Of a DNA stretch of 64,000 bases, positions 10,023 to 16,059 are shown piece by piece (the stretch's first letter is position 1; each line of letters opens with the position of its first letter). Position numbers and translations under genes: made by a program. The notes below the pieces were generated by a model that saw nothing but the letters and a program-made list of their open reading frames with translations, had not been told where the DNA came from and did not search any database. The DNA is from Bacillota bacterium (lineage in GTDB: Bacteria > Bacillota > UBA4882 > UBA10575), in contig DUQR01000040.1 in assembly GCA_012837715.1 (NCBI GenBank), positions 1 through 64,000 on the forward strand, given 5' to 3'.

Positions 10023-10877
10023 CTAAGGAATTGCCTTTAAAAAATCGACGGCGCGCAACATTTCCCGTCTCATCTTCTGCAGGACACTAGTTTTCTGATC
10101 CGGTGAGAGTTCAATCCAGGTCCAGACCTCGGTTTTAAAATCGGGGTCGGCGTCATAACCTTCCAAATAGCCAATCCCGGCTTCCTGAGCTAAGTTATCG
10201 GCAAGGAAAACCAATGCCGTCGCCGCCCAATAATTTCTGGTCTGAACCGGCCGGTGATGATGGCGTAATACTTCTGTGAATAAGGGAGGAAGATTCCATT
10301 TTTCCGCCAGCAGCTTCCCCACCAAGGTATGGTTAAAGCCTAAGACTTTTTCTTCGGCGCGGATCAGCGGGAGATGTTCCTCGGTGGTTAATTTAAGCAG
10401 TTCCTCAAACTCGGTGGTTAAACAGAGATCCAAAAGGAGAACCCCAATATCATGGAGGAGACCGGCAATGTAAGCATCTTCTTCCAGCGGCAGTCCGGCG
10501 CTTTGGGCTAGGGTTTTAGCCCCCACCGCTGTTCCGACCGCATGTTGCCACAAGGCGGACCGGTCAAAAACCTTTCGGTCGTCTTTCATCCGGAATAAAT
10601 CGGCGATACTAATGCTAAGCACCAGTTCTCTAAGGGCTTTAAGTCCGATGATTACTATCCCTTGTCCGACAGTGGTAATCCGACGGGGAAAACCATAATA
10701 AGCGGAGTTGACCAGTTTTAATACCCGGGCGGTTAAAGCCTGGTCTTGCTTAATGACTTGCTCCAGTTCGGCAGCGGAAGAACCGGGGTTGTTTAAGAGG
10801 TTAACTACCCGTTGGGCAATGAGCGGGAGGGTAGGAAGCTCGCGCATGCGCTCTTCGATTAGATCAAGAAATCTCAT
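10023..10877 (-). CDS. HDOD-domain signalling protein
   Basis: HDOD proteins are a divergent, usually non-catalytic branch of the HD phosphohydrolases, found in signalling proteins of motility and c-di-GMP networks. The HDOD signature is at the N-terminus: LPTLPLIAQRVVNLLNNP, then DQALTARVLKLVNSAYYGF, and a later HDIG-like segment LLHDIGVLLL. The start chosen is ATG 10877 (284 residues), overlapping the cheB 3' end by 14 bases in another frame; longer in-frame readings lie wholly inside cheB. Tight coupling with cheB suggests they act in the same pathway. Confidence 0.82.
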   Translation of the reverse strand: MRFLDLIEERMRELPTLPLIAQRVVNLLNNPGSSAAELEQVIKQDQALTARVLKLVNSAYYGFPRRITTVGQGIVIIGLKALRELVLSISIADLFRMKDDRKVFDRSALWQHAVGTAVGAKTLAQSAGLPLEEDAYIAGLLHDIGVLLLDLCLTTEFEELLKLTTEEHLPLIRAEEKVLGFNHTLVGKLLAEKWNLPPLFTEVLRHHHRPVQTRNYWAATALVFLADNLAQEAGIGYLEGYDADPDFKTEVWTWIELSPDQKTSVLQKMRREMLRAVDFLKAIP

Positions 10878-11940
10878 CGCTACCCACTCGCATTTTCTTG
10901 TTTTGGCTAAATCTAGCCAGAACCGACGATAGACAACCGGGAATATCAGGCAAGGGTAATTGGTAATGCACTGCCCCCATTTCCACGGCGACGCGCGGCA
11001 TCCCGTAAATAACACAAGTGGTCGGCGCTTCAGCGATGGTGATCCCGCCGGCTTCTTTAATGATCTTCAAGCCATAGGCGCCATCTGCTCCCATACCAGT
11101 TAACAAAACCCCTACGGTCCGTTTTTTACTGGCGGCAGCCACTGACTCAAAGAGGTAATCAACAGAAGGCCGGTAGAGCGCATCGCTTTCTTTTAATTGA
11201 ATCAGAAATTTCCCTCCTCTGCGGACAACTCCCGTCTGCAAACCGGCAGGAGCGACGAAGACATGGCCGGGAAGAAGTTCGGCTGCTTCCGTCGCCACCT
11301 CTACCTTTAACATAGAGAGGGAGTCCAACCGCTCGGTAAAACTTTTAATAAATTCCTTCGGGAGGTGTTGTGCAATAATGATCCCCCAGGGGAAATCGGC
11401 CGGGAGTTGAGACAAGAGAAAACGAAGGGCCCGAGGCCCCCCCGTCGAAGAACCAATCGCCACCACTCCGGCGGGTAATCTATCGGTAAAAGCCTTTTCT
11501 GCGACCGGTGCGGCCGTAAGTGATTGCCGAATGATTTCGGGCTTAACCCCGGCGGCTGCTTTCACTTTGTGGACTAGTTCATCCTGGATCCGCCAGAGGG
11601 CTTCGGAAGGACGGGACACCGGTTTGGTAATAAAATCAACTGCACCTAACTCCAAAGCTTGGAGGGTTTGCTCGCCCCCCTCCACCGCTAAAGAGCTCAC
11701 TACCACCACCGGAAGCGGACGTTTTCCCATTATTTCCGCTAGAAAGGTGAGCCCGTCCATACGGGGCATCTCCAGATCTAAGGTCACCACGTGGGGCTGG
11801 TAGAAATCGATTTTTTTCAAGGCATCAAGGCCGTCAGTGGCAACCCCGACTACTTTAATTCCGGGATCCGACTCTAACATCTGCTTAATCAATTGGCGCA
11901 TAAAGGCCGAATCATCCACCACTAAGACGTTAATACCCAC
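10864..11940 (-). CDS. cheB: Chemotaxis protein-glutamate methylesterase CheB
   Basis: Response regulator that removes methyl groups from chemoreceptors. The receiver domain (residues 1-120) has the acidic pair DD at 9-10, phospho-acceptor Asp55 (TLDLEMP) and the conserved Lys in FITKPVS. The esterase domain (about 165-350) retains the triad motifs: AIGSSTGGP (Ser), AQHLP (His) and TGMGADG (Asp). The 358 residues are full length; the start is a GTG. No cheR, cheA or receptor gene is in the window, so this is a detached cheB paired with an HDOD gene. Confidence 0.95.
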   Translation of the reverse strand: MGINVLVVDDSAFMRQLIKQMLESDPGIKVVGVATDGLDALKKIDFYQPHVVTLDLEMPRMDGLTFLAEIMGKRPLPVVVVSSLAVEGGEQTLQALELGAVDFITKPVSRPSEALWRIQDELVHKVKAAAGVKPEIIRQSLTAAPVAEKAFTDRLPAGVVAIGSSTGGPRALRFLLSQLPADFPWGIIIAQHLPKEFIKSFTERLDSLSMLKVEVATEAAELLPGHVFVAPAGLQTGVVRRGGKFLIQLKESDALYRPSVDYLFESVAAASKKRTVGVLLTGMGADGAYGLKIIKEAGGITIAEAPTTCVIYGMPRVAVEMGAVHYQLPLPDIPGCLSSVLARFSQNKKMRVGSDEIS

Positions 11941-12104: not shown

Positions 12105-12674
12105 TTAATCAAGCCATAATATTTTAAACACCTGGTGTTCCCCATTAAGCAGAAGGAAACAGATCTTCCCCGGGACTAGCGCCGAGCTGGGGATAGTAAG
12201 ATGCGGTGAGAGGTGTAAACGATAGGTTTGGGTCTGGTCCAGGGGTTGGACCGTAAGGAAACGGCTTCCGGTCTCTACGGCGAGGATTTCTACTTCAGCC
12301 CCAATATACCAGCCATCCACCAAGCGGAGGACTCCTTGCTGGTCAAAGTAAAGGCGGGCGGTAAAATAGAACCCGGGCGCAATTGGGCGCAAAGCCGCCA
12401 GTTCCCCGGCACAGCCATTCACAAAAACCGCAGTGGTTGAAGGAGGAATCGTTTTTTCTCCGGTCTGGTATCCCCGGAAACTAATCCGGTCGGCCGTAAC
12501 GGCAATGATTTCTCCTTCTTCAACGGCTAACGTTCCGTATTGTTCTTCACATGCTTTGAGGGCTGCGGCCACCCGATTGGGAGGCGGAAAGGAGAACCCG
12601 TTTACGGTTGCGTCCGTCCGGGAGGTAACGGCCAAGATGAAGAAAACGATGGCCAATAAGACCTTTATTTTCAT
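12105..12674 (-). CDS. Secreted protein of unknown function
   Basis: Not recognised. The start at 12674 (MKIKVLLAIVFFILAV) has a good AAGGGG site and gives a classic signal peptide cleaved near residue 23; 189 residues in all. The mature part is beta-rich, with two similar halves that each pair a value phrase with EVEILAVETG or EGEIIAVTAD, as in small OB- or barrel-like periplasmic proteins. There are two cysteines in the mature region (KACEEQ and NGCAG). It is the last gene behind the metalloprotease and BamA-like pair (82-base gap) and may share their transcript and compartment. Confidence 0.6.
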   Translation of the reverse strand: MKIKVLLAIVFFILAVTSRTDATVNGFSFPPPNRVAAALKACEEQYGTLAVEEGEIIAVTADRISFRGYQTGEKTIPPSTTAVFVNGCAGELAALRPIAPGFYFTARLYFDQQGVLRLVDGWYIGAEVEILAVETGSRFLTVQPLDQTQTYRLHLSPHLTIPSSALVPGKICFLLLNGEHQVFKILWLD

Positions 12675-12756
12675 TGGATAACCACCCCTTATTACCATTC
12701 TTGGCCAAAATAAGGGGGGTTATACCTACGTTGAAATTCTTTCTTTTTAGCACGGG

Positions 12757-13872
12757 TTAAAAGACTTCTCCCAGGCTAAAGTGCCAACGGGGCTGTCGGT
12801 CTTCGGTATTGAGCGGGATCGCATAGTCTACGCCGATATTTAAGCCGAGCAGGAAAAAACGGAGGCCGATCCCGGCGCCCAGCGCCGGGGCGGCGGAGAT
12901 CCGCTCGTCTCCATCCCAGACCCAGGCCGCATCGGTAAACAGCCCCAGAGAAAGACCGGTCTTTCGTAATTGCTGATAGGAAGCGGGCCAAAGCAACATC
13001 CGCAGTTCCAAATTGGATAAGAGAAAGCCATCCCCTTGAAAACAATAGGCGGGATACCCGCGGAGGACCGTATCGGCCAACGTGCCTAAGAGCCCCAAAT
13101 TGGTCAAGGAGCCTAAACTACTGATGCTAACCTGTTGAATCCCGCCAAGGGCAAAGCCCCGGTGGGTAGGGTAATTACCCCAGATTTTACCGGCCCGCCC
13201 GGCCATAATCATTGTCATCCGCCCCAGTGACCAATATTGACGGTAATCCCCTTCCACCTTCAGGTTTTTATAGGCGGTGCCGAGAAGCGGATAGGCCCCG
13301 CCCACACTGAGGTAACCCCGGGCTCCTTTTTGTGCCAGAAAGGAAAAATCATCATGGTTCAAGGTTGCTTCAAAGCCAAAAAGGGAAGCCGCATCCACCG
13401 GATAACGAAAGGAACTCTCCGGTGAAAAATCTTCATACTGCAACCTTAAGTCCAACCGGCTTTGATTCCGAAAATGCCCACTGGCCAACAGGCTGATCCC
13501 CTTTTGCCGCTCCCAAAAGCCTAGTCCCCAAGGAGGTCCGGTGTAAACTGGCATCTGGTAAAGGTTGATCCCGTAAGACCAGAAGGGAGCATGATAGGTA
13601 TAACCTAAAACCAGGTTCACACTTTCCTCCTCCGAAGCCAGCAGCACAAATTGGAGTTCCTGATCCCGTAGAATACTGCTCATCTTACCGTAAGTGGCCG
13701 CACTAAAAGTTCCATCGTACCAAAAGATCGGAATTAAATATTCCAGCTCCAGCTGGGAGTGGTATTCTTCGTACTCTGGACCAACCTGAGCTCCCGCCGA
13801 GGCCGAAACGGCCAAAAAAAGCACAGGCAAAAGCAAAACCCAGGTGCAGCGGGAAGATCTTTTTTTTTCCAT
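12757..13872 (-). CDS. BamA/surface-antigen-like outer-membrane beta-barrel
   Basis: A signal peptide (LLLPVLFLAVSASAGAQ) precedes about 345 residues of alternating amphipathic strands ending in Phe (HFSLGEVF), the C-terminal aromatic signature recognised by the BAM complex. The segments RGYPAYCFQGDGFLLSNLE and GAGIGLRFFLLGLNIGVDY resemble the last strands of the Omp85/D15 surface-antigen domain. No POTRA domains are present, so it is not BamA itself. It starts 13 bases after the metalloprotease/propeller gene; in other bacteria these three modules can occur as one polypeptide, which suggests a shared function at the cell surface (inference). Confidence 0.7.
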   Translation of the reverse strand: MEKKRSSRCTWVLLLPVLFLAVSASAGAQVGPEYEEYHSQLELEYLIPIFWYDGTFSAATYGKMSSILRDQELQFVLLASEEESVNLVLGYTYHAPFWSYGINLYQMPVYTGPPWGLGFWERQKGISLLASGHFRNQSRLDLRLQYEDFSPESSFRYPVDAASLFGFEATLNHDDFSFLAQKGARGYLSVGGAYPLLGTAYKNLKVEGDYRQYWSLGRMTMIMAGRAGKIWGNYPTHRGFALGGIQQVSISSLGSLTNLGLLGTLADTVLRGYPAYCFQGDGFLLSNLELRMLLWPASYQQLRKTGLSLGLFTDAAWVWDGDERISAAPALGAGIGLRFFLLGLNIGVDYAIPLNTEDRQPRWHFSLGEVF

Positions 13873-13885
13873 CGTGTTATCCCCC

Positions 13886-15541
13886 TTAAGGTAGGAATCG
13901 GTAAACTTGGGCCTTTTGGTCGTGATAAAGGGTTACGAGAAAAGCATCCTCCAGCGGGATAAATTCCAGAACACTCTCCCGGTGAAGCCAGAAGGGTTCG
14001 GCGGAACCAACCGTCAGGTCGACGACAGCCGGACGATAGTAACCATGATCTCCAACAAGACAGTATACTTTTCCATCCCCGTTCCAGACCGGATGGCGAT
14101 GGTGTTGATGGTCCCGGGTCAATTGCCGTGTGGTTTGCCCGTTCCAGAGGTAAAGCTGGTCATACTGTTCGTGGGGAGTGACATAAATTAAGTGCTGTCC
14201 GTCGGGAGCCCAAGTGGGTGCGGTTTCATCCTGGAGGGAGTCGGCAATGACCCCTAGCGACCGCCCATCGGGCGCCATGAGAAAAAGGTCGGCGTCGCCC
14301 TTGAGATTGGCCACCACCGCCAGACGGTCTCCCTGAGGAGACCAAGCCACCTCAATGGGATTGGTTATTTCTGAGACGATCGGGGTCACCACACCGGTAG
14401 TTAATTCTAAGTGGTAAAGTCGGCGCTCTCCTTCTTGATCCGAGAGGAAAACCAGTTGTCGGCCATCGGGCGCCAAATCATAAGCAAAAACGGTCCGGTC
14501 GGTCAAGGGCTGCACCTCAGCTCCGTCAGCCCGGTATAGATCGTAGATCCGTCCCTGCTGAGTGGAGAGGAAAAAGATTTCTCCCCCGGGTCCCACTTTG
14601 ACCATGGATTGATCCAGGTAGTCGGGGAAGATTGGTTCGTTCTCCTCAATGTACGAGGATAAATCGGCCCCTACTTGATAGATCTCCTTTAGTTCCTCCC
14701 GCCAGTCCGTCCATAATTCCTGGAGCGAACGGTCAAATAGTCGTCGAAAGGTTTGGTCGCGGTGGCCTTGCTTAACCACGGCCTCCAGCATGACAACCAA
14801 TTGATCCTGCCCGTATTTCCGGGCAATATAATCAATCAGCGACCAAGCTTCGGCATAATGAAGATTACCGCTGACCATTGAGATGGTGTTGAGCGAATCC
14901 ACTGCATCCCGGAGGACCACATCACGGAGGGCGACCTCGCGGTTGGGAAAACGGGTCTCCGCCGGCATATAGTACTCAGCCAGCCCTTCGGCAATCCACC
15001 CGGGCACCCCTTCAGTCACTCCGTAAAGGAGATTGTTTTTAAATGGACCTATGGTAATCAAGTGGGTGATTTCATGGGTTAATACCCCTCTTAAATCCCG
15101 GAAGGTCGGCTGCCCGATCACCACCAACCGGTTGATCAGAATATGGGCAACCCCTTCCGAAGTATCGGTGAGGGAAAGGCCACTGGCCTGAGAATTTTGG
15201 TACTCGTTCCGGGAAGCAAAGAGAATCACCCGGATTTTCCGGTAGGGATGCAGTGTATATAAGCGGCGAAAATCCGGAAACACGCGGTCAAAGGCTTCTT
15301 CTTCCAGGATCCGGCCACTCCGTTCGGCCAATTCTTCTAAGCCTTGGTAAAAATAGATCTCAAAATGGGCGGTGGTCAATTTTTTCCAATGTAAAGGACG
15401 GGATAAGGCTTTCACCTGCCCAAAACGATATTCGGCGCCAGTGTTACTTAGCTCCACGGCCGACCGGGCAGGTAATGTCCAGAACAGACATAAACAGAAA
15501 AGGCTAATTACTGAAAGATAAAAACGATGTTTCTTCTTCAT
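13886..15541 (-). CDS. Secreted peptidase MA-family metalloprotease with TolB-like propeller
   Basis: A signal peptide (cleavage near SA at residue 28) is followed by a gluzincin domain: HEITH at residues 156-160 supplies two zinc ligands and the catalytic Glu, and GWIAEGLAEY at 181-190 the third ligand, typical of the peptidase MA family. The C-terminal half (about 300-551) carries TolB/PD40-type propeller repeats such as LAPDGRQLVFLSDQEG, WSPQGDRLAVVANLKG and WAPDGQHLIYVT. All catalytic residues are in place. It lies directly upstream of the barrel gene, so an envelope complex is likely. Substrate unknown. Confidence 0.8.
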   Translation of the reverse strand: MKKKHRFYLSVISLFCLCLFWTLPARSAVELSNTGAEYRFGQVKALSRPLHWKKLTTAHFEIYFYQGLEELAERSGRILEEEAFDRVFPDFRRLYTLHPYRKIRVILFASRNEYQNSQASGLSLTDTSEGVAHILINRLVVIGQPTFRDLRGVLTHEITHLITIGPFKNNLLYGVTEGVPGWIAEGLAEYYMPAETRFPNREVALRDVVLRDAVDSLNTISMVSGNLHYAEAWSLIDYIARKYGQDQLVVMLEAVVKQGHRDQTFRRLFDRSLQELWTDWREELKEIYQVGADLSSYIEENEPIFPDYLDQSMVKVGPGGEIFFLSTQQGRIYDLYRADGAEVQPLTDRTVFAYDLAPDGRQLVFLSDQEGERRLYHLELTTGVVTPIVSEITNPIEVAWSPQGDRLAVVANLKGDADLFLMAPDGRSLGVIADSLQDETAPTWAPDGQHLIYVTPHEQYDQLYLWNGQTTRQLTRDHQHHRHPVWNGDGKVYCLVGDHGYYRPAVVDLTVGSAEPFWLHRESVLEFIPLEDAFLVTLYHDQKAQVYRFLP

Positions 15542-15770: not shown

Positions 15771-15797
15771 TAAAAAAAAAGAGGTCGTTCCCTCTTC
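15771..15797 (-). terminator. Intrinsic terminator after yabP
   Basis: Minus strand AGAGG-GAACGA-CCTCT followed by nine T, directly at the yabP stop codon. Confidence 0.75.
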
Positions 15798-16059
15798 ATT
15801 TAAAGATCTTGCCAAAAAGGCCTCTACTTTTTTGGGTAAGCGATTCGTTACTGTAGTTAAGGGAGTTGATCATCCCTGTCAAGCCGATCTTACCCTGTTC
15901 CAAATTGAGTTGGGTTAAATGAAGGTTTTCACCTTTAATCATTAACACCCCGTCCTCGGTTTCGAGGAGAAGTTCCGTCGGGTCATAACTGCCCACATTG
16001 GTAACGCCGTCAATCGTCAGCTTTTCCCGCTTTACCAGGGTTAATTGATGGCTGTTCAT
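15796..16059 (-). CDS. yabP: Sporulation protein YabP
   Basis: Small protein made in the mother cell and needed for spore cortex formation in B. subtilis, where it acts with YabQ. The 87 residues show the YabP/YqfC fold pattern (LTIDGVTNVGSYD, LLLETEDGVLMIKGENLH, LEQGKIGLTGMINSLNY) and the YabP-type end GLFGKIFK, which YqfC lacks. AGAGGGGAAATC precedes the ATG. In most Bacillota yabP is next to yabQ; here yabQ is 31 kb away, and yabP instead follows mazG and a spoIID-like gene. Confidence 0.88.
   Translation of the reverse strand: MNSHQLTLVKREKLTIDGVTNVGSYDPTELLLETEDGVLMIKGENLHLTQLNLEQGKIGLTGMINSLNYSNESLTQKSRGLFGKIFK

Follow-up and report, generated by a model that had tools for sequence, protein, structure and literature searches.

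A predicted metalloprotease-propeller and a POTRA-less Omp85 barrel encoded as a coupled gene pair in Bacillota

Introduction

The WD40-Omp85, noNterm and 'Metallo' groups of Omp85 proteins were described by Heinz and Lithgow in 2014 (PMC4104836). Propeller-Omp85 fusions are thus already catalogued, with functions only proposed, and the proposal for WD40-Omp85 is a BamA-BamB-like platform (PMC4104836). For Omp85-'Metallo', proteolytic quality control in the periplasm is considered (PMC4104836).

Two other systems place a hydrolytic enzyme at an Omp85 barrel. In PlpD the enzyme domain is periplasmic, and the first barrel strand binds a beta-signal-like motif in its lid (PMC11116518). BepA, a metallopeptidase of the periplasm, works at BAM and contacts its client through an edge strand (PMC8423444).

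Here we describe a gene pair in the window, the whole stretch of 64,000 nucleotides that was analysed. A secreted metalloprotease with a propeller and an Omp85 barrel are encoded there as two chains, an arrangement called split below, whereas the relatives called fused-type are one chain. The pair resembles WD40-Omp85 in combining a TolB-like propeller with an Omp85 barrel (PMC4104836) but has them on two chains instead of one. The fused proteins of this analysis would fit that group, with a Peptidase_MA domain in front, and the word 'peptidase' is absent from the main text of its description (PMC4104836).

The barrel is like the noNterm Omp85 proteins in lacking an N-terminal domain (PMC4104836) but is coupled to a secreted metalloprotease-propeller gene. 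An enzyme domain and an Omp85 barrel are shared with Omp85-'Metallo', whose domain is however PF00149, not Peptidase_MA, and lies in the same chain (PMC4104836). The likeness to BepA is a periplasmic zinc metallopeptidase at an Omp85 protein (PMC8423444), and that to PlpD is a hydrolytic enzyme that faces the periplasm at an Omp85 barrel (PMC11116518). BepA, however, has neither a propeller nor a dedicated barrel, and PlpD is a patatin lipase with POTRA, all in one chain. Among the titles and abstract openings listed by a literature search for the architecture, there was neither a split pair nor a characterised Peptidase_MA-Omp85 protein.

Results

Layout of the locus

The genome comprises 2.44 Mb in 53 contigs, and its SpoIID and YabP matches point to a spore-forming host. 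On the minus strand, YabP is followed by the protease-propeller gene, the barrel gene, a third gene and CheB, with the following features.

15796-16059, minus strand: YabP, upstream of the protease-propeller gene
15778-15797, minus strand: terminator-like stem-loop with a T run, between YabP and the pair
13886-15541, minus strand: predicted secreted Peptidase_MA and TolB-type propeller protein, 551 aa (ORF, Pfam, NCBIfam and structure model)
15386-15463, minus strand: conserved N-terminal strap of the protease, residues 27-52, holding the beta-signal-like NTGAEYRF (33-40)
15062-15076, minus strand: HEITH zinc-site motif, residues 156-160, with HExTH invariant in the orthologues
14975-14989, minus strand: EGLAE, residues 185-189, with E185, G186, A188 and E189 invariant
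13895-14608, minus strand: TolB-type beta-propeller, residues 312-549 (Pfam, model and VIA)
12757-13872, minus strand: Omp85 barrel without POTRA, with a predicted signal peptide, 371 aa (Pfam, model, Foldseek and VIA)
13054-13065, minus strand: LRGY of the barrel, residues 270-273, with R271, G272 and Y273 invariant, 102 residues from the C-terminus
12105-12698, minus strand: predicted secreted protein of unassigned family, 197 aa, an optional third gene present in 11 of 14 loci
10864-11940, minus strand: CheB, after the 12105-12698 gene

The protease-propeller and the barrel are two ORFs in different frames, and 13 nt separate the stop of the former from the ATG of the latter. Signal peptides of the encoded proteins were assigned by eye. 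Neither terminator-like sites (5 in the region against a shuffle mean of 6.8) nor promoter-like sites (4 against 3.7 in shuffles) are enriched. The 12105-12698 protein has no Pfam match at E up to 1 and no NCBIfam match, and it evolves fast, the window copy being 20-64% identical to 7 others.

The protease-propeller protein

The first-pass annotation had read the pair as a secreted peptidase MA domain with a TolB-type propeller, followed 13 bases downstream by a signal-peptide barrel of the Omp85 kind. Both halves of this reading hold.

The protease-propeller matches Peptidase_MA_2 (1.3e-11) and PD40 (1.4e-11), both over the Pfam cut-off. Its sequence has HExxH and a downstream third glutamate, E185, the presumed third zinc ligand. 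All 13 split orthologues, at 46-81% identity, keep HExTH and EG.AE.Y unchanged, which suggests more than chance conservation of these motifs. The product is a predicted Peptidase MA metallopeptidase. PF00149 of the 'Metallo' group is a phosphoesterase family.

The NCBIfam TolB model matches the propeller at 7.9e-22, and its 77.8 bits are far under the cut-off of 343.15 bits for a full-length TolB. The propeller fold is that of TolB, but a peptidase domain takes the place of TolB's N-terminal domain. In the model (pLDDT 82), the peptidase part is helical and, by our own strand count, the propeller has five blades of four strands followed by a last one of three.

VIA aligns the modelled propeller with TolB at Z 21.7-23.1 over 231-238 residues in its first 13 rows, for example with 4r40_A at Z 22.9 over 238 residues (rmsd 3.0). 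The VIA rows for the protease model cover residues 293-551 only, so the peptidase fold was hardly compared. By sequence, 55 PDB chains among the matches listed match the propeller part and none of them matches the peptidase part.

The barrel protein

The barrel matches the Pfam Omp85 model over the cut-off (3.9e-16). At E up to 1 it matches neither POTRA, which sets it apart from BamA and FhaC, nor ShlB. The lack of a ShlB match distinguishes the pair from two-partner secretion, as does the barrel's partner, modelled as a peptidase with a propeller and not as a beta-helical exoprotein. As aligned, only the signal peptide and about 10 residues precede the barrel.

Failure of the barrel prediction would have spoken against the first-pass reading, and the model instead matches Omp85 entries in both Foldseek and VIA. 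Its top Foldseek match is D. radiodurans BamA (E 8.2e-10), and the best 50 of 125 matches at E up to 0.001 are all BamA/BAM, SAM, TamA or TOC. VIA gives SAM, BamA, TamA and TOC entries at Z 20.8 to 18.9 among the 50 matches listed. The PDB sequence search found one weak BamA match (E 0.0054).

Pfam, Foldseek and VIA together point to a BamA-type barrel, for which the model has 14 strands built against 16 expected and a low-confidence N-terminal part. Its mean pLDDT is 64, and residues 19-72 and 241-267 are weak.

We take LRGY, or RG(F/Y), to be the Omp85 loop-6 motif. RGY is invariant in 11 aligned barrel rows and [LM]RGY occurs in all 14 split barrels. The barrel end, RWHFSLGEVF, resembles RFNFLIGEMF of a BamA from the same genome.

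Pairing and synteny in the class

Of 29 genomes of the class, 15 carry the split protease, and the barrel occurs in exactly these 15. The other 14, comprising G016 of the same family and 13 genomes outside the family, have no orthologue of either half. G016 has a fused-type protein only. Judged by their frames, the weaker protease matches outside the 15 genomes are either propellers or proteins of the fused type. The protease is visible only as pieces at contig ends in G002 and G004, and in G003 it lies at a contig end with the barrel on a different contig.

The protease-barrel junction is visible in 14 loci. Each of them has an in-frame candidate start codon for the barrel (ATG, GTG or TTG, picked close to the stop) at a distance of -14 to +20 nt from the stop codon of the protease. 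Conserved linkage in relatives, whose lack would have spoken against the first-pass reading, is borne out, in a neighbourhood that is itself largely syntenic. Most of the Rho-to-ROK gene order around the pair is preserved within the family; most gene labels there, among them Rho, ROK, HDOD and MazG, were assigned by eye. Because this synteny extends over many genes, the adjacency of the pair is weak evidence alone.

The 12105-12698 gene had been suggested as a third part of the system. It is missing, together with HDOD, from three loci of genus g3 (L058, L060 and L061), so it does not qualify as a fixed component.

Omp85 proteins across the phylum and in the same genome

In a phylum sample of 398 genomes, the profile of the fused proteins matches 41 at 1e-20 and Omp85 matches 102; both surveys are taken to cover the same genomes, as their handles agree. 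Forty of the 41 are among the 102, and the exception, G185, has a propeller-only match. Among genomes hand-picked for a match that covers the peptidase, all 31 have Omp85; in one of them, G009, the protein matched by the profile is the split protease. Fisher values for the association are overstated, since the genomes are related. The family is not universal among genomes with Omp85, 62 of the 102 having no fused-profile match.

The window's own genome has six Omp85 matches, four of them over the cut-off. Two are POTRA-bearing, BamA-like proteins (POTRA at 9.9e-21 and 5.7e-19). An OmpH-like and a TamB-like protein are also present. The LptD model PF04453 has no match in this genome and matches two of seven Omp85-bearing control genomes. 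BepA belongs to the M48 family and carries TPR; a search for this family found two members in the genome.

Fused-type relatives

The first-pass annotation had described such modules as fused in other phyla. A published counterpart, WD40-Omp85, joins the propeller and the barrel (PMC4104836), and in this analysis fused relatives occur within the same phylum, family and genome. These long frames with one HExxH are found inside and outside the family and across the phylum. Read by hand, they are in 13 of the 16 family genomes and in 12 of the 15 with the split pair; G003, G004 and G009 have none among the fused-profile matches.

The genome of the window seems to encode a one-chain version too, of 882 aa (G000:C40:3486-6134). 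The fused profile covers it at positions 3-651 of 915 (E 1.0e-69), which is the ground for assigning it a peptidase and a propeller. It has no Pfam propeller, and Peptidase_MA_2 is sub-threshold (24.4 against 32.4). Its IRGY lies 102 residues from the end, the same spacing as LRGY in the split barrel. This spacing and the likeness of the two fused barrel groups below are the grounds for its putative barrel assignment.

The peptidase-propeller halves of split and fused proteins are clearly homologous by profile (474 aligned columns, E 6.5e-43). Pfam, run on 10 fused proteins, finds the Omp85 barrel in none and Peptidase_MA_2 absent or sub-threshold. The split barrel has no match to the full-length fused alignment in a profile comparison (probability 5.7), and only trimmed C-termini matched. 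The barrel-start pattern for trimming fitted 19 of 32 fused-type proteins, of which 14 were used. They were grouped by eye into A (eight barrels) and B (six, including the paralogue from the same genome), and L080, L090, L098, L041 and L043 fit the pattern but were left out.

The split barrel scores 39.2 locally (best of 100 shuffles 21.8) and 39.3 globally (best 16.9) against group A. None of 100 column shuffles reaches the score, the local probability is 54.4, and the global alignment is nearly end to end (8-339 against 1-318). Group A matches group B at 56.5 (best shuffle 21.8; 0 of 100 reach it). Against the BamA barrels of the same genome, the split barrel scores 65.3 locally (best shuffle 26.5) with a local probability of 95.5.

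Two comparisons did not rise above shuffles. One is the split barrel with group B, where 48 of 100 are as high locally and two of the six B rows (L104 and L105) are incomplete, ending at the edge of the fetched stretch. The other is group A with those BamA barrels (12 of 100 locally and 6 of 100 globally). By these scores, the split barrel would bridge the fused barrels and BamA, being nearer to BamA. Ten of 26 fused proteins have a strict loop-6 motif within their last 220 residues and 16 are without it; the 15,976 residues that precede the last 300 contain no match.

A tree was built of 47 protease-propellers without L088, L094, L096 and L100, left out by hand. It includes 34 fused-type rows, hand-chosen with one HExxH each, some of which end at the fetched stretch or a contig edge. 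One branch parts all split from all fused rows (100/100), with a stem of 1.83 and an attachment beside the long row L103 (89/95) under midpoint rooting only. With this long stem and midpoint root, the tree is silent on whether the split or the fused form came first.

The fused group A genes of genus g3 (L037, L038 and L039) lie near genes for a bacterial alpha-2-macroglobulin and a GH94 phosphorylase, as identified by Pfam for L038.

N-terminal strap of the protease

The strap lies directly after the presumed signal peptide, at the mature N-terminus. Among 13 orthologues, 13 of its 26 residues are invariant against 130 of the 499 in 53-551 (Fisher p 0.012). The model is of low confidence there, with pLDDT of 28, 29 and 39 for blocks 21-30, 31-40 and 41-50. 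The strap is not unique in this, as residues 121-140 form a second conserved stretch of low pLDDT with 7 of 20 invariant.

A beta-signal follows the pattern polar-x-G-x-x-aromatic-x-aromatic. This pattern, chosen post hoc with the strap already seen, is matched by NTGAEYRF-type sequences in 12 of the 13 split orthologues, which form one lineage so that the 12 are not independent events. The one failing the tight pattern is L057. Upstream of HExxH, the pattern occurs in none of 29 fused-profile relatives, a few of them incomplete. As background, 43 other long ORFs of the window, 17,291 residues in all, contain 6 matches.

Discussion

Our main reading, with moderate confidence, takes the pair as a two-chain form of the published WD40-Omp85 type, in which a periplasmic metalloprotease would be held beneath a POTRA-less barrel and cleave envelope proteins. 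The barrel would sit in the outer membrane and the protease would remain in the periplasm, where its propeller would hold it beneath the barrel. Its targets would be envelope proteins in transit or stalled at the membrane, much as for BepA at BAM. The complex, its periplasmic side, the strap docking and a role in quality control or processing are what we infer. The parallel with BepA and LptD may not be literal, because PF04453 finds nothing in the genome.

The modules, the existence of fused forms and the association with Omp85 genomes favour a protease kept next to an outer-membrane barrel. The first-pass label of a 'surface' system has no support here, a periplasmic place being likelier by analogy. 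FhaC-type Omp85 barrels do export partner proteins, and both chains here look secreted from closely coupled genes. Export of the protease to the surface or medium, by a two-partner or type Vd-like secretion pair, is nevertheless improbable. The barrel has no POTRA match and the partner is modelled as a globular metalloprotease with a propeller, not a beta-helix. Moreover, PlpD, the former model for type Vd, turned out to be periplasmic (PMC11116518). Still less probable is that two envelope proteins with separate jobs have merely inherited their synteny. The kept order from Rho to ROK, mostly labelled by eye, would allow this, but both halves are jointly absent from G016 and the 13 genomes outside the family, the stop and the candidate start lie within 20 nt in every visible junction, and fused relatives exist.

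The origin of the barrel bears on a further alternative, in which a BamA-derived POTRA-less insertase was recruited and partnered by the protease, with no fission of a fused protein. Its higher local score with BamA than with group A, the failure against group B and the BamA-like barrel end all speak for recruitment, and the tree, with its long stem and midpoint root, favours neither origin. We still consider recruitment somewhat unlikely, as the group A barrel is related beyond shuffles and nearly end to end globally and the peptidase-propeller halves are clearly homologous.

Within the two-chain WD40-Omp85-type reading, the strap perhaps helps to hold the protease by beta-signal-like pairing with an edge strand of the barrel, and it could stand in for the covalent link lost in the split form. 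In the bolder version, the strap would pair with the edge strand of the POTRA-less partner barrel, the recognition code for barrel assembly being reused for lasting protease docking. This is a tentative idea that we judge unlikely.

The pair is relevant to how outer-membrane-bearing, spore-forming Bacillota keep that membrane under surveillance. As a natural two-chain version, it offers an enzyme and a barrel that can be expressed separately, and docking, topology and cleavage are each testable.

Two other loci of the same genome may be mentioned. At G000:C53 (L129:1848-4857), a protein with AAT (PF03417) and TPR lies directly before an Omp85 barrel that has one sub-threshold POTRA match, the second such combination of a hydrolase-like protein and an Omp85 barrel in the genome. 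At G000:C22 (L128:4926-7925), a 999-aa protein has Peptidase_M1, a sub-threshold C-terminal Omp85 match and MRGY 122 residues from the end, and is perhaps another protease-barrel chain.
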